Shown: in pieces, positions 9,495-64,000 of the stretch
How the letters are laid out: each line of letters opens with the position of its first letter
Position numbering within the stretch: the stretch's first letter is position 1
DNA from: Zygnema cylindricum
Lineage: Eukaryota; Streptophyta; Zygnematophyceae; Zygnematales; Zygnemataceae
Direction: 5' to 3'
NCBI GenBank assembly: GCA_037447655.1
Contig: JBBHKE010002973.1
Location: forward strand, 97,111-161,110
Length of the DNA stretch: 64,000 bases
Position numbers and translations under genes: made by a program
Notes under the pieces: generated by a model
Databases searched by the model: none
The model's input: only the letters and a program-made list of their open reading frames with translations
What the model was told of the DNA's origin: nothing

Positions 9495-10840
9495 GTAAGG
9501 ACAACAGGTAGGTCGCGACATCCATGGCAAAACCACTATCCAGCTGGAATAGCGTGGAGAGGTGGAACCAAGCACTCCATATGAAATCCTACATTGCAAT
9601 AGTCATACAGAAGCTTCGTCGTTTCTCCATCAGACCGCCGACACAAATGACACTCGGTGGCCTCAGTAATCAGAATCCGCCACGGATCCATGCTGCGGGA
9701 AAGATCAGGTAGGTAGTAGGGGGCACAATTTTTTGAATGTTCTCGCAAAGTTCGCGTGTCAGCCCCTTGTAGGCTTAATAATCCATTGGAGTCGATCTTT
9801 GTGATCCTCAATATGTGAGCCAAGACATGCGTGTCGAGTGTGTCAAATGTTTGCCGACGCAAATATACATAGTCCCCCACCCGATAGGGTTTTTGTTGTG
9901 GTCGGTAACTGCCACTGCGAGTTGTTGCAAACTGTAAGTAGTCGCGATATTGAGCAATCTGCAAGTTTCCAAAGGCCATTAGAATTTCCCTAGGAAAAAG
10001 CAAAGCCCGGTTGGTTAGTTCTTCCAAAAAAAGAGAATTAGACATAAACGGCAAAGGAAAACTAGCGACTTTCTGTATATTTCTACCTAGTAGTGGCTGT
10101 CGACCAAATAACACATAACAGGGACTAAAATTTGCTAAGCTGGCCTGTACAGACATGCGATAACCCATGACAATATAACCCAATGATTTATCCCACACAG
10201 TGATCTGTTTCTCCAAACAATGTTTACGCAAATCCCGATTAAATGTTTGCACCGCCCTTTCGACCAAACCGTATGCCTGGGGATGATATCGACTTATTCG
10301 ACGGTGATCGATCAACACCTCGTCCAACATCTCTTGAAATTCGCCACGAAACTCGCTTCCCTCGTCTGTAAGGACTTCTGCTGGAGCTCCATATCGGAGG
10401 AGCACATGCTCCTTGAAAGCGGTTGTGGTGAGTTTCGCAGTTTTGTGCGGGAGGGCCACAACTTCCACCCATTTGCTGAAATTCCCGATCATGATCATGA
10501 TGTATTGCTTGTCCCTTGGTGAGTCGGGAAAAGGACCTGCGGAATCACACAACCACCTGTAGAAGAGACCTCCGATAGGCAAAGGTTGAAGTGTAGTCTG
10601 ACGGTTAGAGAATGAGGTCCGCAACCGGTGACATGTGCTACATCCTTTTAACACAACCACCACGTCAGCTTGCATGCCTGACCACCAATAACGTGCCTGT
10701 ACCAAACTCAAAATACGTTTGGTACCCTAATGTCCCAGATCAGTATGAATCTGATCTATAAGCAATAGGCGATCTGTTGGCCGAGGAACATGCCGATGAC
10801 TTCCATCTGCGAGGAGACGAATAAGGGAACCTCCCATCCA
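9495..10840 (-). pseudogene. Gypsy-1 integrase with C-terminal PHD finger (two stops)
   Basis: This is the 3' end of a Ty3/gypsy pol, which inserts element cDNA into the genome. The largest open piece (10711-9536, 391 codons) starts in the HHCC zinc domain (CSTC). The catalytic triad follows: D in LCDSAGPF, D in LTDEGSEF and E in GLVERAVQ. A PHD-finger-like module ends it: CHLC, then YDYC, GFHMEC and PPL. An in-frame TAG falls after IPAG, and the frame continues with WFCHGC, the expected last cysteines. The third zinc-ligand cysteine is a tyrosine here. A second stop lies near 10728 in the zinc domain. The PHD module may play the targeting role that chromodomains play in chromoviruses; this is inference. 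Confidence 0.75.
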
Positions 10841-10984: not shown

Positions 10985-12245
10985 ACTCTAAACCAGGTGT
11001 GCTCCAGCAGACATCGATGCAACTGGTACGTCATCAAAATCGTGTCGCACTCCATTAACGGCAGAATTGGGTAAGGGGTTTCGAGAAAGATCGTCGACAT
11101 TCAAACTGAGGAGCCCGGGTCGATGGATGATCTCCATATTGTATTCCTGCAAAATAAAAACCCAGCGGGCTAATTTGCCGGATAGTTTGTCATTGGTCAT
11201 GAGCCAATGCAATGGTTGATGGTCACGAATTAAATAAAAAGCTTACAAAATAAAGGGAAATGCAATTCCCCAAGAAACCCCCCTTTATAACTATATCTGT
11301 AGTTCGACTCCTTAATTATTACCGGTGGCATGTTCCATATTCTTCGCCCGAGCTCATTGCGTCAGGATGGCTACGATATCATTTACCAAAGTCACATTCC
11401 ACACCAAAATAAATATATGATTTGGTGGACGAAGAATGGGAGTGTTGGACAGTGCTTTCTTTAATCCCTGGAATGCCTCAATCTGCGGGGGTCCCCAAGT
11501 TAACGGCACTGATTTTTTCAAGAGGTCATTTAGTGGGGATGCGAGCGTGCTGAAACAAGGAACAAACCTCCGATAATAATTTGCAAAACCTAAGAGAGCA
11601 CGTAGGCTCGTTAAATCTGTTGGGGCCGGTAGTTTACTAATCGCTTCTACCTTGGCTTCTAGAGGAGTGATTCCCTCGGATGAGATAAAATGCCCGAAAT
11701 ATGGTACCTCTTCGGACCCGAAGATGCATTTGGCAAGATGGCATTTGAGACCCACCTTTTTCAACTCCTTTAATACCCACTCTATATGTGCTGTGTGTTC
11801 CTCTATAGAGGCTGAAGCGATGATTAAATCGTCAATGTAGCAGCGGGCAAACTTACATCCCCCTAAGACTGAGTCCATAACAATGTGAAATACGGCAGTG
11901 CATTTTTCAAGCCAAAGGGCATAACTCACCATTCCCAACGCCCATCACTTCCCCAAAATGTAGTCTTATGTCCGTCTTTTTCCTCTATTTCAATTTGGTT
12001 AAACCCCTGTTGTAAATCTAGAATGCTAAAATATTTAGCCCCTTTGATCAAAAGTGTCCTCTGCCAAAGGCATTGGATGTCGGTCCTGGATTGTACGAGA
12101 ATTCAGTTCTCGATAGTCCCCGCACATGGGACTTTGTGTGAAATTCCCCTATGCGTCTTTTTTACGAGGCGTGAGGATAAGCGCCGCAAAGGTGGAGTCG
12201 GACCTAAAAATCAGTCTTGCCTCTTCTAACTCTGTGCATGGTTTG
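10985..12245 (-). pseudogene. Gypsy-1 reverse transcriptase and RNase H, broken
   Basis: The minus strand reads a Ty3/gypsy RT: ILDLQQGFNQ near 12005, CYIDDLIIAS (the YxDD active site) near 11840, then LGFANYYRRF and the RNase H tether PLHWLMTNDKLSGKLARW at 11212-11160. The frame is broken between 11938 and 11990 and again at 11215-11353, where the RNase H core is degenerate. Similarity to gypsy-2 stops near 12250. The element is truncated here, close to the assembly gap. Confidence 0.75.
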
Positions 12246-12663
12246 TCCACTTAAAGTGTGTTTCAGGGTACACGCCCCTGATAGCTCTTGACTTAAGAGC
12301 ATGTTAGGTCCTGGCTGTAGGTTACGGAAACCGTCTCCTGTGAAAACTAGTTTCCCCGATTTATAAAATCGTAAGATCTAAATGTTGTCCCCAAATTGGT
12401 TTAACTTTATCTCCTTTTTCTGCCTGTNNNNNNNNNNTTTCGCGTTCTTTATGACGCCTTCATAAATACTGCCAGTGCTAACATTGGGCCGAATTAGTCT
12501 GCCGGTGCTTCGTACGGCTCTAGCACCTTATCCAAAAGCCGCCAAACGTCAATTGCAGTGCAGTTAACGGTGCACCGTGTTAGTGTAACCTAATGCTGTA
12601 GAGAACCCTAAGGTTCTTGCTTAGGTTTTTACTGTACACAGCTGAAAAACCGGTACAACAATG
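12246..12663. other. Unassigned sequence around an assembly gap
   Basis: Ten N mark a gap at 12428-12437. Sequence on either side does not continue the gypsy frame and matches none of the other elements here. The join between gypsy-1 and the following LTR should not be trusted. Confidence 0.6.
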
Positions 12664-13486
12664 AAGGGTCAAAGTTGACCTTTTGTACAGGAGCTCTCTG
12701 GGAGAGAGGGTCTAATCAATCAAATTTTTCTAAGTCCTATCTCTCTCTAAAACTCATCTACTGAAGTAAGGCACCAATCATAATAGTGTACCGTACATAA
12801 AGGTACATGTGCCGATGTACTTTATGTACGGATATTGTACAACATGGCCAAAAAGTCGACACATGTCATTTTTGGATTCGTTCTTGGAATCCCAGGAGAT
12901 GTCGTAATCCAATGTGATTGTGCCACGTGGCAATTGACGTGACGTCAACCGCAAACCGCCGAAAACCTATTCCACGATCTCGGCATGCTTCGTGGCCGTC
13001 TGATTAAGCCGGGTTACAATCGTGACCGTCATAAATACTTCCGCAGTATTTCTTGCGCTTTCTAAAGAAATGCGCATTATTCGTTTTGAATGTTCCGTAC
13101 GCCGTACTTTACAAACTGTATCTATGTTTAAAGATCCCGTTAAATGAAATATATTACGTGTTAACATTTAATTAACTATCAAACCATACACCTCCAAGCA
13201 TGATGGCAAACTAAATGGCTAAGGCTACAGGCTAAGAGTGGACGGTAGGTACCCGGTTCAAATTCTGGGTCCGTCAATTTATATTTTGGTAAATCTACCA
13301 AAATCTACAACCCGTAACTCTATCTTTAATCAGCATAGGCAACCATGGCTCTAGCTCCCTCTTCAACCTTCAGTGACTACGACAAATGTGGGAGCTGAAG
13401 AGAGAAGTTAGAGGCAGACTGCCTCTGCTTCTTTTCTGCATTTTGCAAAACCTAGAAAATACTAAAATAACTTTTTTATTTCTACA
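12664..13486 (-). mobile_element. Copia LTR fragment inserted in gypsy-2 integrase
   Basis: The segment has the same modules in the same order as the complete copia LTRs: a ggtcaaagttgacc start, the aagtcctatctctct block, the tRNA-like module, the gcaaccatggctctagct block, and the TTTCTACA terminus. The right border joins gypsy-2 integrase at accacttgtagaag, which matches gypsy-1 at 10551. The left part of the LTR is missing or replaced. The tRNA-like module has an A-box-like TGGCTAAGGC at 13216, a B-box-like GGTTCAAATTC at 13255 and TTTT at 13284. Confidence 0.6.
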
Positions 13487-13840: not shown

Positions 13841-15400
13841 ACTAGGTGGATAAAAATAGGACCAGAGCGCTGTCCTGCCATGGATCGTATTCAGTTTTGT
13901 GAACTCTGGGACGCGAAAAAATTGTAGACCAGGTGTGCTCCAATAGACAGCGATGCAAGTGGTTCGTCATCAAAATCTTGTCGCACTCCATTATCGACAA
14001 AATTGGGTAAGGGGTTTCGGGAAAGACCATCAGCAATCAAACTGAGGAGCCCGGGTCGATGGATGATCTCCATATCGTATTCCTGCAAATTAAGAGCCTA
14101 GCGGGCTAACTTGCCAGATAGTTTGTCATTGGTCATGAGCCAATGCAATGGTTGATGGTTAGTAAGAAGAGTAAAAGGCTTGCCATAAAGGTAATGGCGG
14201 AAATGCACAATTCCCCAAACTGCGGCCAAGCACTCCCCACTACTATAGTTCGACTTTGCTTTATTGTTGCTTCGACTAGCATAAGCCACCACATATTCCT
14301 CACCTGTAAGCTCACGCTGAGTTAGGATGGCGGCGATTACAGGCTTACCAAAGTCTGTCCGTAGGCAAAATGGTAACTTAGGATTCGGTGGACCGAGAAT
14401 GGGACCGGTGGAGAGTGCTTTTTTTAATCCCTGGAATGCCTCAATTTGCGGGGGTACACAAGTAAACAGCGCTGATTTTTTCAAGGGTTCATTTAGTGGG
14501 GATGCGAGCATGCTAAACCCAGGAACAAACCTTCGATAATAATTAGCCAAACCTAGGAATGCACGCAGGCTTGTTAAATCTCTTGGGGCCAGTAGTTTAC
14601 TGATCGCTTCTACCTTGGCTTCTAGCAGAGTAATTCCCTCGGATGAGATAAAATGCCTGAGATATGGTACTCTTTCAGCCCCGAAGATGCATTTGGCAGG
14701 ATGGCATTTGAGACCCACCTTTTTGAACTCTTTTAATACACATTCTATATGTGTTGCGTGTTCTTCTATAGAGGCTGAAGCAATGATTAAATCGTCAATG
14801 TAGCAACGGGTAAACTTTCATCCCCTTAAGATTGAGTCCACAACCTTTTGGAATACGGCCAGTGCATTTTTCAAGCCAAAGGGCATAACTAACCATTCCC
14901 AACGCCCATCACTTCCCCAAAATGCAATCTTATGTCAGTCTTTCTCCTCTATTTCAATTTGGTTAAACCCCTGTTGTAGACCCCGAATGCTGAAATATTT
15001 AGCCCCTCCGATGTGATCAATAATGTCCTCCGCCAAAAGCATTGGATGACGGTCCTGGATTGTACGGGAATTCAGTTCTTGATAGTCCCCGCACATGCAA
15101 CGTACTGTGAAATTCCCCTCGGCGTCTTTTTTACAAAGCATGACGTTAGGCGCCGTAAAGGTGGAGTCAGACCTATAAATCAATCCTTCCTCTTCTAACT
15201 CTGGGCATCGTTTGTCCAATGCTTCCTATTCGCTTTGTGATAGACGATGCTTGGGTTTGAATATGGGTCTTTCATCTTCCAAGTCAATGGACATTCGGTA
15301 AGTGGTGTGTCGACCTAAATCTTTCATGGAGTAAGCGAACGCGTCTTTGTGTTGGTTTATGACATTGTCTAACAGTTCGTGTTCCGGTTTCCTTAGTCAC
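13841..15400 (-). pseudogene. Gypsy-2 reverse transcriptase and RNase H, broken
   Basis: Reading from 15400 down, the frame gives EEEGLIYRSDSTFTAPNVML, a fingers/palm region with GLQQGFNQ, and CYIDDLIIAS near 14790. The thumb and RNase H follow at 14718-14098 (ALLTNHQPLHW-type motif and LTQRELTGEEYVV). A tether with HRPGLLSLIADGLSRNPLP is at 14088-13891. Several frameshifts split it. It matches gypsy-1 closely enough to be the same family. It should copy element RNA into cDNA in a virus-like particle; this copy cannot. Confidence 0.75.
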
Positions 15401-17108: not shown

Positions 17109-18157
17109 TGAAACTCTGAGACCTCCATAAGTCCTCAGAGTGGACAGCTTCCAAGAAGCCTCTAGGATAATCCTGACCCCTTTGTGTTTAAGCAAAAATA
17201 ACTGCCACCCTGACAGACAAAAACTCTGACCAACTTCACCCCTGTGAAGACAAGACTCCCCTGAGTCGATAGCAAAAAGAATCTCTGAATTTGCTCCCCT
17301 GAGCAGTAAGTTATGGAGGGTCAAAGTTGACCTTTTGTACAGAAGCTCTCTGGGAGAGGGGATCCTATCTTCTAATTTTTCTAAGTCCTATCTCTCTCAC
17401 AGACTCTATCTACTGATGTACGGAACCAATCAGAATTGAGTTTCGTACGCAAAAGTATAGCTGCCGGTGTACTTTATGTACGGATATTGTACGACATGGC
17501 CAAAATGTCGACACATGTCAAATCCGGATTCGGTGCCATAATCTCCGCAGATTCCACAATGCAACGGAATTTCGCCACGCGTCATCCGATGTGGCGATGG
17601 CCACAAACCGCCGAAATCTTCCTCTGCGATCTCGGCGCTAATCCCGGCCGTCCGATTAAATTCGGCTTTAATCGTAGCCGTAATAAATACATGCGCGGTA
17701 TTTGTTTCATTTACGAAACAAATGCGCGGTACTGATTTGTGTCCGTACCGTAAGTCGTACATTATATATTACTGGATCTATGTATCCCGTAATTCATTTC
17801 AGTTAAATGGTTTATCGCTTGTATACATATGTAAATAATTATCAAACTATATGCTAGGTAACACTACCGCTAGATTAAACGGCTAAGGCTACCGGCTACT
17901 TCGTGTCTGCTGGCCGGCAGGTACAAGGATCAAATCCTGCCGCCGGCACATACATTTTAATTAAATATATAAACCCTAATATAAAATTCCCGTAAACCTC
18001 AGGATAGCCAAGGTAGCCATGGCTCTAGCTTCCTCTCCAATTTCTCAGTGACTGCGACAAATTTGAGAGTCGCAGAGAGAATTTAGAGATAGACTGCCTC
18101 GACTTCTATATTTCTTTGCAGACCTAGAAAATACTAATAAAACCATTAGTTTGTACA
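17109..18157 (-). repeat. Copia A 3' LTR
   Basis: The 1049-bp repeat begins TGAAACTC and ends TTTGTACA on the plus strand. It pairs with 22512-23559. On the plus strand, antisense to the element, it contains a tRNA-like module: A-box-like CGGCTAAGGC at 17880, B-box-like GGATCAAATCC at 17927 and TTTT at 17955. Confidence 0.85.
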
Positions 18158-18170
18158 CTCCCCTTATTTT

Positions 18171-20900
18171 CTAGTCAATCTTTAATTTCAGACCACACTT
18201 CTCCCTGCAAAAAATTAGCTTAGGGGAAGGCACAGGTTTGGTCATCATATCTGCTACCATCTCACTATCTGGTCTGTACTCTAAACTGATTATTTTGTTT
18301 TCTACTTTCTCTCTAACAAAGCTGAGTCTGATGTCCATGTGTTTGGCTTTAAAATGGTGTTTAGGATTGGCAGAAATAGCAATTGCTGCCTGATTATCAC
18401 AAAATATTTTCTGCACACCACTCTTAAGGTGACCAAGCTCACCAAGCAAAGACTTGACCCACATCAATTCTTTTACAGCAGAGCAAGAGGCCATATACTC
18501 AGCCTCCATGGTGGACTGAGCAATAACCTTTTGCTGTTTGCTACTCCAACAGCAAGCCCCATCACCCACATATAATACATATCCAGAAGTACATCTCCTC
18601 ATTGGAGCATCACCATAACTGGCATCACTCCAAGTAGTGATGTCAGTATTCTCCCCACCCAAATGAAACCATAGATCTCTAGTTCCTACCAAGTATCTAA
18701 GGACTCTCTTAGCTGCCTCCCAATCCTTCTTAGTGGGAGCATTTAGACTTCTACTCAGCACTCCTACAGCTGCAGCTAAATCCGGCCGGGTACAATTCAT
18801 AAAATAGATTAGACTTCCCACTACTTGCCTGTAAGGAATAGTCTGCATGAACTTCTGTTCTTCAGGAGATAATTCCTCGTCTAAGACTATGACTCCTTCT
18901 TCCTCACTCCCCTCACTTCCCTTCTTCAATTCCATTGGAGTTGTACAACTATTAGCTTTATCCATTTGAAATTTTTCAAGCATGTTCCCTATTGCTTCCT
19001 TTTGAGTCAATCTTATAATTTTCCTTTTTCGGTCTCTCTCTACTTGAATTCCCAAAATATATTTTGCTTCCCCCATATCCTTCATTTCAAATCTCCCCTT
19101 AAGATCGGTTTTCAGTTTATTAATTTTTTCCATTGATTTACTTAAAACAAGCAAATAATCAACATAAATTGCAATAAATATAAAACCTTCCTCATCTTCG
19201 AAAACATAGATTGAGTGATCTGAGCTGATCCGGATATATCCTAGACCGGTAAGAAACTCATCAAGCTTCTTATTCCACTGTCGGGGCGCCTGTTTCAAAC
19301 CATAAAGAGATTTAATCAGCCGGCATACCTTACTCTCCTCTCCTTCTTCCACAAACCCTTTGGGTTGTCGCATGAAGATCTCCTCTTCTAATTCTCCATG
19401 CAAAAAGGCTGTTTTGATGTCCATCTGGTGCACTTCCATGTCTTCCGCCGCTGCTAAACTGAGAAGTATGCGGACGGAGGGAAATCTGACCACCGGGGCA
19501 AAGGTTTCCTCGTAGTCAATTCCTTCATTTTGTGTAAATCCCTTTGCCACTAATCTGGCCTTGTAGCGCTCGATTGTGTTATCTAGGTTCAGTTTTAGTT
19601 TGAAAACCCACTTACAACCGATTGGTTTTCGGTTAGGTGGACAGTCCACCAGCTCCCAAGTATCGGCTGCCATGATTGAAGCCATCTCCTCATTGATGGC
19701 TGTCTTCCACCGGTTTCTTTCTGGACAAGTCATCGCCTCTCGATAAGTTTGAGGTTCATCTTGATGAGATAATTTAGTTACCTTGTTATTAACCTGTTTT
19801 TCTTGCAGTCTTTTGCTACTTCTCCTCCCTCCCTCAAAATCTGAGGCCGGAATAGATGGTTCTCGTGGATTCTTTCGAACAAACTCGGCTTCTCCCCTAT
19901 CCCTTGATTCCGAATCAATTTCCACCACGTCTTCCGCTTCGAGTAGAGTTGTCACTGGAGTTTCCACAGCCGAGTCCTTTTCGGTCTGATTTGTTCCTGC
20001 AAGAATGTCATCGTCTCTAAAACCTGGATAGTTAGGAAGCTCAAAGTCATCATAATTTTCTGACTCAAATCTGATTTTTACTGACTTTGTATATTTGAAG
20101 GGATCCACAGACTTTCCTTCATCCATAACTACTAGATGCTTTACTAAGATTATATCTTCTCTTTTTAGATCATAAACTCTATATCCTTTAACATCCTCAT
20201 CATATCCTAATAAGTATCCCGGTTTTCCTTTAGGATCTAGCTTCCAATTGGACCGATCAGTATCTAGACTGAATACTTGACTGCCGAAAACCTTTAAATG
20301 AGATAAGTCTGGTTTCCAGCTTGTCCATCTCTCATAAGGTGTTTGATCTTTTATAGCTGAAGTAAGAACTCTATTTTTGAGGTAATTAGCACAGTTCATT
20401 GCTTCTGCCCAAAACCTTTTTCCTATCTTCTTATCCGACAACATACTTCTAGCACTATCACTTAGTGTTCTATTTAACCTTTGAGCTACCCCATTCTGTT
20501 CAAGATTTTCTGGCACTGTCTTTTGGTGTTGAACCCCATCTTCCCTCAAAAAATCCTCAAACTGGTTAGAAGTATACTCTCCACCATTGTCACTCCTTAC
20601 TCTCTTGATTGGAGTTTCATGGAGTTTTTCGCTCCATGCTTTATATTGTCTAAAACAGTCCTCAGCCTCTGACTTGTTTTTCAAAAAATATACTCGGGAA
20701 TACCGAGACCAATCATCAGTTATAGTCATCATAAATCTCTTCCCCCCCGGTGAGGGCACTCTAGCTGGTCCCCAAATATCTGTGTGTACTAGATCTAGAA
20801 GTTTTTCTCCCTTGTAGGTGGCTGTTTTTGGAAAGGGTAATCTGTGTGCTTTACCTTGAGCACACCCACTACAATCAGTTATATCATCACTCTCACTGAA
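18171..20900 (-). pseudogene. Copia A integrase, reverse transcriptase and RNase H
   Basis: An 862-codon open stretch (20759-18171) follows an in-frame TAG near 20900. Integrase has ITDDWSRY (D at residues 15-16) and RSDNGGEY (D57). The expected catalytic E of VAERxNR is Q93, encoded at 20483-20481. RT begins near [22 protein letters not shown]. Its active site is YVDY at residues 532-535 (19166-19155) where copia enzymes have YVDD. RNase H keeps SDAS, MEAEY and CDNQAA. So the frame looks long and healthy, but two catalytic sites are changed and upstream stops separate it from gag. It would have processed element RNA to cDNA and inserted it. Confidence 0.85.
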
Positions 20901-21138
20901 CTAAATCCCTTCCACCACTCCCATCTTTTTCATCTCTCTTAACTTATCTAGATTCACATGCCCAAGCCTCTTATGCCACATCATAATATCATGAACACCA
21001 GCATAATAAAGTTTCTTCGTTTCATTACTTAAGATCAGCCTAAACATCCCATGGCTACCTTTCTCAGCAATGAAATAGACATCCTCCTCAAAACTAGCAG
21101 TAAAGACTCCTTCCCTAGTGCTAGTGAAAAAACCCTTA
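20901..21138 (-). pseudogene. Copia A pre-integrase zinc region, frameshifted
   Basis: The minus strand reads DIMMWHKRLGHVNLDKLREMKKMGVVEGI and then TAG, where related elements have glutamine or lysine. This is the GAG_pre-integrs/HHCC region (MWHKRLGH...CSGCAQGK) that precedes the integrase core. A frameshift near 21140 separates it from the protease. Confidence 0.75.
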
Positions 21139-21790
21139 TCATCTAATTAATGATGTAGAGATAAGGTTTTTGTTCAGCTCCGGAATAAACAATACATCGG
21201 AGAATGTTAATATGGATGTCTTTCCTTCTACTAACACTTTCAGATCTACCGATCCTACAAGAGTAGTGGTGACTATCCTCCCATCCCCGTACTCTATCTC
21301 TACGGTGGGAATCTTTCTTATCTTAGTGAACAGGTGTCTATCCTTACACATGTGCATTGAGGCACCTGAATCTATAATCCAGCCTGCTTCACCTTTCAAT
21401 CCACCGTAAGCACATTTCTGCCTTCGTGGAATTTCAACCTCAGTTTTCGCCTCCAACTCCTCATCCAAAAGGAGCTCATCGTCCTCGTCCTCGGATTCCG
21501 CCTCAAGTACCTGTGTGACAAGGGCCTTTTTCTTTCCTCTCGGGGTACCACCGGTCTGCCCCTCCTTTAACCGAAGCTCGGTTAGCTTGGTGCACTCTGC
21601 CATATAGTGCCCCGGTTTCTTACAAAAATGACATAAACCTTTGGGAGCCCTTGGTTCGAACTCGCCAACCTGTTTTTTCTGCTCCCTACCCCCATAATTT
21701 CCGACTGGTTTTCCGAGAATCCTTGTTCCTCCAATCGGTCGCTGTTGCCAAGGCTTGGCCACTTTTTCCTCCCCTTCGGATCTCAATCGT
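21139..21790 (-). pseudogene. Copia A zinc knuckle and aspartic protease
   Basis: The frame contains CHFCKKPGHYMAEC, a CCHC nucleic-acid-binding knuckle. An acidic linker follows (SEDEDDELLLDEE), then IIDSGASMHM, the copia protease active site with DSGA. It then runs through VPT..YGDGRI into DVLFIPELNKNLIST. It is in a different frame from the upstream gag, so a frameshift lies near 21700. Confidence 0.8.
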
Positions 21791-22507
21791 ATTCTCTCGA
21801 ACGAGAATCATCCCTACCACTGAGTTCCATATCCACCTTGAGTCCGGCAAGTCCTGCACACGGTTGACTATGTTCTCGAACTCATCAGGTAACTTCATTA
21901 GTAAACAGTTAACTTTTTCTTTTTCACTAAAAACTTTACGCGCACTCTCTAGCTCCATGAAGAGTGTAGCAAGCTCATTGCAAAAATCCAACATATTTCC
22001 CCCTTTGTATACATACTCCTTAACTTTCTGATCAGCCAACTGTTGTTGTTGAATCGTACCACTTCGGTACATCTCTATGAGAGCCATCCAAAGATCGGAT
22101 GCCCTCTCTACCTGCAAATGAGGACATGCAAGTCCTTGAGTGAGATGGCGTAGGATGAAGTGCTTTGCCGCCATATTGTTGAAGTCCCAGGTTTCAGTAT
22201 CATTCTCCTCGTTCCTCGGAATAGGTGACATGAATGCTAAACTAGTTGCTATTGGTGTGGTCGCCTCCTTCTCCTTTCCTTTGTCCACCACCTCTCCTTC
22301 CTTTGTTTCCTCCGTTGAACGTGAATCCTCTTTCCTGGTGAATCTGCTTCCTTTAAACCCTGGAGGAATTCCAAGAATTGATGGACGCCCCAATCGTCCA
22401 CTCACTATCCCCCAAAACCTTTTTTCGCATAGAGCTCCTATCATCATACTTTCCCAGTATATGAAGCCAGTTCCATTAAAGATTGGTACCCTAGAGGGTG
22501 GGCCCAT
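21690..22507 (-). pseudogene. Copia A gag
   Basis: Gag starts MGPPSRVPIFNGTGFIYWE at 22507, only 5 nt after the 5' LTR, with the start codon inside the primer-binding site. The body has the UBN2-type pattern DLWMALIEMYRSG, QQQQLADQKVKEY, LLMKLPDEFENIV and W.W.SVVGMIL. It forms the virus-like particle shell. The frame runs 280 codons and then shifts before the zinc knuckle. Confidence 0.8.
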
Positions 22508-22511
22508 AACC
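22493..22511 (-). promoter_or_regulatory. Copia A primer-binding site, half-tRNA type
   Basis: On the minus strand the sequence directly after the LTR is GGTTATGGGCCCACC. It is the exact complement of the anticodon arm of plant initiator tRNA-Met (GGUGGGCCCAUAACC, recalled from the conserved tRNA), not of its 3' end. The ATG of gag is the complement of the CAU anticodon. The same site occurs in copia C and D, with small changes in B, E and F. Confidence 0.75.
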
Positions 22512-23559
22512 TGAAACTCTGAGACCTCCATAAGTCCTCAGAGTGGACAGCTTCCAAGAAGCCTCTAGGATAATCCTGACCCCTTTGTGTTTAAGCAAAA
22601 ATAACTGCCACCCTGACAGACAAAAACTCTGACCAACTTCACCCCTGTGAAGACAAGACTCCCTTGAGTCGATAGCAAAAAGAATCTTTGAATTTGCTCC
22701 CGTGAGCAGTAAGTTATGGAGGGTCAAAGTTGACCTTTTGTACAGAAGCTCTCTGGGAGAGGGGGTCCTATCTTCTAATTTTTCTAAGTCCTATCTCTCT
22801 CACAGACTCTATCTACTGATGTACGGAACCAATCAGAATTGAGTTCCGTACGCAAAAGTACAGCTGTCGGTGTACTTTATGTACGTATATTGTACGACAT
22901 GGCCAAAATGTCGACACATGTCAAATCCGGATTCGGTGCCATAATCTCCGGAGATTCCACAATCCAACGGAATTTCGCCACGCGTCATCCGATGTGGCGA
23001 TGGCCACAAACCGCCAAAATCTTCCTCCGCGATCTCGGCGCTAATCCCGGCCGTCCGATTAAATTCGGCTTTAATCGTAGCCGTAATAAATACATGCGCG
23101 GTATTTGTTCATTTACGAAACAAATGCGCGGTACTAATTTGTGTCCGTACCGTAAGTCGTACATTATATATTACTGGATCTATGTATCCCGTAATTCATT
23201 TCAGTTAAATGGTTTATCGCTTGTATACATATGTAAATAATTATCAAACTATATGCTAGGTAACACTACCGCTAGATTAAACGGCTAAGGCTACCGGCTA
23301 CTTCGTGTCTGCTGGCCGGCAGGTACAAGGATCAAATCCTGCCGCCGGCACATACATTTTAATTAAATATATAAACCCTAATATAAAATTCCCGTAAACC
23401 TCGGGATAGCCAAGGTAGCCATGGCTCTAGCTTCCTCTCCAATTTCTCAGTGACTGCGACAAGTTTGAGAGTTGGAGAGAGAAGTTAGAGATAGACTGCC
23501 TCGACTTCTATATTTCTTTTCAGACCTAGAAAATACTAATAAAACCATTAGTTTCTACA
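22512..23559 (-). repeat. Copia A 5' LTR
   Basis: The 1048-bp repeat matches 17109-18157 and ends TTTCTACA. The antisense tRNA-like module has CGGCTAAGGC at 23282, GGATCAAATCC at 23329 and TTTT at 23357. Confidence 0.85.
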
Positions 23560-62833: not shown

Positions 62834-63170
62834 GAGGACTATGGTGATTTTGAGGCACTTTATAGAGATGTGGTTTTATAAGGAGAGGTGGTAAAATGGA
62901 TAATGGTCGTTTGCAAAAAATTATACTAATAGTGTGGCTTTGTTTAGCTTTTTTTTGTAGCTTTATACTGATAGATTAACATTTGTACTTTTCTTTTACG
63001 GTATGCAGTATACATTGTATTTTTTTCTTTCACGTTGAATATTATCTATCCCTTTTTGTTTTTTTGTTTTCATATTTTGTCACGCAAGTTGGATGGCCAA
63101 AATAATGGATGAAATGTATTTGTAGTGATGGTGTAAAAACGTATCCTAAATTGCAGTGTCATTCTGCCAT
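62834..63170. other. 3' flank of transposase, no gene
   Basis: T-rich sequence with no coding motif separates the transposase stop from the right palindrome cluster. Confidence 0.4.
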
Positions 63171-63172
63171 TC

Positions 63173-63625
63173 AGCGACGACACATTGTCGTCGCTGATTG
63201 GCCAAATATGAAATATACCATTCAGCGACGACATAGCTTCGTTACTGGATGGCATAAGTTATAGTATGCCAAAAAGATAAAAAGGATAAGAGTACCAGAG
63301 ATATAAAGTAGAGAGCCTATTTGAGAGAAAGGGATGGATAAATAAATAAAGAATGGGATAGTGACAGATAGGAAGCGAAAGAACCAAAAGGCTGGATTTT
63401 AAGGATGTAAAAAAAAAGTTTGAAATATAAAAAAATAAGTTGGAGAATATGAGGACTAGAGGGACGGGTAGTGTTATTAAGGTAAATATTAAACAGAGAT
63501 GGAAAATAAGAGAGAAATAATCATGGGATGGAGAAATGGGTTCCGACTACTTGTGTCGACACAGTGTTGGTGCTGAATGGTGAAAAATTAAAAATGCCAT
63601 TCAGCGACGAGACATTCTCGTCGTT
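63173..63625. repeat. Three 23-bp palindromes, right cluster
   Basis: Units lie at 63173-63195, 63224-63246 and 63603-63625, with the same 8-7-8 layout as the left cluster. Each is preceded by CCATTC. A further arm, attcagcgacga, starts at 63651 but runs into the mirror-image junction. Orientation is opposite to the left cluster, which suits subterminal inverted repeats of a DNA transposon. Confidence 0.65.
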
Positions 63626-64000
63626 GACTAGCAAGATAGAACAACATCACATTCAGCGACGATACCGATCAGTTGCTGCTCTTACAGAGCAGCGACTTAC
63701 CGTAAAAATTAAAAAGTGGTAAGTCGTGGTTGTGACACAGCTGTGTTCATCAGCCTTGGGTAAAGAGGTAGGGTACTAATAAAGAGAGAATAAAAGGTAG
63801 AGACAAATTATAAATGGAATTATTGTGATGGGCAGGGAGATCAGGAGTATAAGAGGTTGAATAAAAAAATATAAAGTTTGAAAAAAAAATGTAGGAATTT
63901 TAGGTCGGAAAACCAAGAAAGCGAAGGATAGACAGTGATAGGGTAAGAAATAAATAAATAGGTAGGGAAAGAGAGTTTATCCGAGAGATGAAATATAGAG
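63298..64000. repeat. Mirror repeat: two 335-nt arms, reversed but not complemented
   Basis: Reading 63298-63632 left to right gives the same bases as reading 64000-63666 right to left, with all 335 positions identical. The unmatched centre is 63633-63665 and the symmetry point is 63649. The right arm reaches the last base of the window, so it may continue. The left arm carries a palindrome in the orientation of its neighbours and is probably the native one. Confidence 0.95.

Follow-up and report, generated by a model that had tools for sequence, protein, structure and literature searches.

Mirror-image blocks beside scaffold gaps in a draft assembly of Zygnema cylindricum are almost certainly a software artefact

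The window, meaning the whole stretch of 64,000 nucleotides analysed here, corresponds to positions 97111-161110 of scaffold C2234 in the draft assembly of Zygnema cylindricum, which comprises 352,776,454 bases (352.8 Mb) in 2,689 contigs. It is rich in LTR-retroelement sequence and includes Ty1/copia frames of the RVT_2, rve, SH3_retrovirus and copia gag types, a content that together with the genome size would suggest a eukaryote. A copia-type element with RVT_2, SH3_retrovirus, rve and copia gag frames occupies 17313-23109 on the minus strand. The copia frames at 18171-22531 are flanked at 17313-17706 and 22716-23109 by copies of an LTR-like repeat that is also present at 12661-13061, and flanking positions of this kind would fit LTRs. 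A further minus-strand frame at 9536-10711 is integrase-like (rve, Integrase_H2C2), and its end shows a weak PHD-finger match of 19.7 bits against a Pfam cut-off of 24. The minus-strand translation of 11969-12146 resembles, by eye, a fragment of a Ty3/gypsy-type reverse transcriptase. Close to the end of the window, 63057-63665 belongs to an interspersed repeat family, contains four copies of the CATTCAGCGACGA motif in short hairpins, and has relatives that extend well past 63665.

The last bases of the window form a mirror, that is, a pair of arms in which one strand repeats its own letters in reverse order without complementing them. The initial annotation had claimed a perfect 335-nt mirror at 63298-64000, and a position-by-position comparison confirms the claim with coordinates exact to the base, since 63298-63632 is identical to 63666-64000 read backwards at 335/335 positions. 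In other orientations the same two arms agree at 0/335 positions as reverse complements, 99/335 in direct alignment and 96/335 as complements; an inverted repeat or hairpin is rejected on the complementarity of 0/335. The arms are of mixed sequence with all four bases present. Mirrors that form H-DNA are homopurine-homopyrimidine, and a homopurine H-DNA mirror is rejected for 335-nt arms of this composition. The 33-nt spacer between the arms (63633-63665) is asymmetric, with the first inward mismatch at the pair 63633/63665. A continuation of the comparison past 64000, which the initial annotation had proposed, finds that the mirror goes no further; it ends outward at 64000 because 64001 is an N, the first of 7,211. 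The 5 kb preceding the window is free of N, and N is therefore not a mask laid over everything outside the window.

An exact-mirror-match search across the whole window detected two more long mirrors that were absent from the initial annotation, at 11969-12427 and 12438-13061. Mirror arms of 178 and 223 nt abut the two sides of the only N-run in the window, 10 N at 12428-12437. The second mirror pairs 11969-12146 with 12250-12427 at 178/178 positions, and the third pairs 12438-12660 with 12839-13061 at 220/223 positions in near-continuous runs of 111, 50 and 56 nt. The features are listed below by position, with genuine and false as judged from the comparisons that follow.

11969-12249, plus strand: genuine arm (11969-12146) and spacer (12147-12249) of the second mirror, repeated collinearly within the window at 14933-15218
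12250-12427, no strand: second false block, a reversed copy of 11969-12146 adjoining the 10-N run on its left
12428-12437, no strand: scaffold gap of 10 N
12438-12660, no strand: third false block, a reversed copy of 12839-13061 adjoining the 10-N run on its right
12661-13061, plus strand: spacer (12661-12838) and genuine arm (12839-13061) of the third mirror, an LTR-like repeat with collinear copies in the window
63298-63632, plus strand: left arm of the terminal mirror, genuine, part of an interspersed repeat
63633-63665, plus strand: spacer of the terminal mirror, genuine, the final real bases ahead of the false block
63666-64000, no strand: false block, a reversed and non-complemented copy of 63298-63632 adjoining the gap of 7,211 N from 64001 onward

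The two arms of a mirror can be told apart by their relatives elsewhere in the genome. A genome search with 63201-63700 gives at least 58 matched stretches from 146 candidates, of which 40 were scored, and none of the 57 other stretches among those scored passes query base 465, which is position 63665. Nine relatives, the best of the scored list, are collinear with the window up to 63664 or 63665, and past 63665 they have a common continuation in 36/36 pairs. The right arm shows weak matches to that continuation, the best of 37 nt with an E value of 0.055. The initial annotation had placed the boundary at 63666 and advised distrust of any annotation from there on; the boundary is exact. It had also proposed that the arms be searched against the genome; left arm plus spacer return many matches, while a search with 63666-64000 over the 352.8 Mb finds no match besides itself (1 candidate). 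A real duplication is rejected on the self-match of the right arm and on the nine relatives, which differ from the window beyond 63665.

The same asymmetry is present at the internal gap. The stretch 11969-12249 has 39 other scored matches (40 of 275 candidates scored), all of which reach query position 279 or 281 of 281, and 12250-12427 has no genome match besides itself. On the other side of the gap, 12661-13061 has 39 other scored copies at 96-99% identity (40 of 6,759 first-look candidates scored); the abundance and identity of this LTR-like repeat suggest recent activity. In a BLAST comparison within the window, none of the three gap-side arms has a match besides itself. Where tested, these alignments show that the far arm and spacer are genuine and that the gap-side arm is false.

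The association with gaps extends along the scaffold. In 303 kb of C2234 (92111-395300) there are four gaps, and a mirror arm touches the N-run at 8/8 edges, a count that includes the terminal mirror itself and comes from a sample picked by the window alone. The arms at the eight edges measure 178, 223, 335, 215, 72, 363, 30 and 69 nt. The 215-nt arm is exact and opens the far side of the 7,211-N gap (scaffold positions 168322-168536 and 168670-168884). The 30-nt arm sits in a repeated stretch and has mirror matches at several further places. The 69-nt arm belongs to a 138-nt string at a gap edge, C2234:249080-249217, which is its own mirror and has no spacer. Once the eight arms are masked, 294,464 called bases of C2234 remain, and no exact mirror among them is longer than a 27-nt CT-rich run, simple repeats aside; this search took exact matches of at least 16 nt and required a run to contain 9 or more different 3-mers. 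When 16 gap flanks were each shuffled 20 times at constant mononucleotide composition, no gap-touching arm scored above 9. A chance origin is excluded by these shuffle scores and by the 27-nt limit on residual mirrors.

One gap-side arm leads to other scaffolds. The block 12438-12660 has five other genome matches, spread over five scaffolds (all 6 candidates were scored). On an artefact origin, each match would be expected to fall within a mirror arm beside an N-run, and 5/5 do. At the five gaps concerned, nine of the ten edges were read, all but the far edge of the gap on C819, and an N-touching mirror arm is present at 6/9, a biased sample because every place was located through a reversed block. 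No mirror arm is found at the left edges of the C2614 and C370 gaps, where 1,437 nt of flank were read in each case, or at the left edge of the C220 gap, where only 268 nt were read; these three edges count against an artefact. Pooled over six scaffolds, 14/17 edges have a mirror arm that starts at the first base beside the N. Five gaps carry mirrors on both sides, built independently from unrelated local sequence. The arm plus spacer spans 49-401 nt over the 14 positive edges and 348-401 nt in 7/14. Three arm pairs are imperfect (220/223, 153/154 and 282/285), a further point against an artefact, and the final contig text was therefore not the source of those blocks.

The initial annotation had left open an artefact or a feature of no known mechanism, and separate tests support the former. 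Judged from the assembled letters, the mirrors are almost certainly a systematic software artefact of the draft assembly. The gap-edge pattern, the self-only matches and the differing continuation of the relatives lead to the reading of 63666-64000, 12250-12427 and 12438-12660 as reversed copies that were in all likelihood written by software. Reversing a sequence and leaving it uncomplemented is an operation on text, and we know of no polymerase, ligase or transposase that acts on a strand in this way. The step responsible would be contig-end extension, partial gap filling or scaffold writing. In such a step, a piece from the contig's own end may have been placed in the wrong orientation, reversed without being complemented; alternatively, a piece stored on the other strand may have been complemented and not reversed. 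The overhang beyond the contig end would then have been output as new sequence beside the gap. The misplaced unit is probably a read, because the upper limit of arm plus spacer (401 nt) would fit one, and a read placed backwards would overlap the contig end over the length of the spacer and project beyond it over the length of the arm. The mismatches of the third mirror would be accounted for if the read came from a sister copy or an allele, because the scored copies of that repeat are 96-99% alike.

Other explanations start from particular aspects of the same observations. The right arm of the terminal mirror runs to the exact last base of the window, as would be expected if the assembly were sound and the end of the window file had been altered or reflection-padded, whether accidentally or for testing. 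The final window base is, however, also the final base ahead of a gap, and reflection at an edge would give no asymmetric spacer. The scaffold letters are identical to those of the window, although both come from the same source. The pattern also occurs inside the window at 11969-13061, elsewhere on the scaffold and on five other scaffolds, where it goes with N-runs rather than with the ends of the window. A window-edge effect is rejected on the like pattern within the window and on other scaffolds, and an altered file is very improbable. Another alternative is the assembly, at contig ends, of fold-back chimeras from library preparation or of molecules with missed hairpin adapters, which are known in general to turn reads back onto their own sequence near contig ends. 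Such molecules are expected to give reverse-complement arms, against the 0/335 observed, and this origin has next to no probability.

The mirrors could also be real genomic features produced by an unknown polarity-reversing process, with gaps arising because the assembler stalls there. They are exact or nearly exact and recur over six scaffolds, and the few mismatches can be read as divergence. Yet the arm meets the N-run to the base at every positive edge, and assembly should sometimes succeed across a real feature; away from the four gaps, the 294,464 bases of C2234 contain no comparable mirror. The five gaps with independent, unrelated mirrors on both sides and the lack of a known mechanism also stand against real features, which are judged extremely improbable. 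The corresponding claim about the organism, that a genuine process lays single-strand-reversed copies of hundreds of bases at many loci and that assembly stops at them, is given a vanishingly small probability. We return to a software artefact as the preferred reading.

Among known systems, the closest likeness is to misassembly at contig ends and gap edges by faulty extension, gap filling or scaffolding, which likewise places false sequence beside N-runs, unsupported by other repeat copies. What sets the present case apart is that the false sequence repeats the contig's own end in reversed, non-complemented form. Fold-back and hairpin read chimeras share the turning back of a local copy on itself, but their arms are reverse complements. 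Mirror symmetry is common to the present arms and to H-DNA mirror repeats; the latter are homopurine-homopyrimidine, as the HSeeker abstract (PMC13404959) also states, whereas the terminal mirror is 335 nt of mixed sequence. A limited literature search found no description of reversed, non-complemented sequence at gap edges.

The practical consequence concerns annotation. False blocks of 30-363 nt lie at 14/17 gap edges, in a small sample that was partly picked through such blocks. They resemble unique sequence, truncate repeat annotation, and would resist read mapping; no annotation should be placed on the blocks at 12250-12427 and 12438-12660. Mirror symmetry abutting N-runs offers a cheap test for a like error in other assemblies. 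As for the organism, the terminal mirror is almost certainly not a real feature and carries no biological novelty or meaning; as a mirror that is almost certainly a computer error, it tells nothing about the DNA of Zygnema cylindricum.
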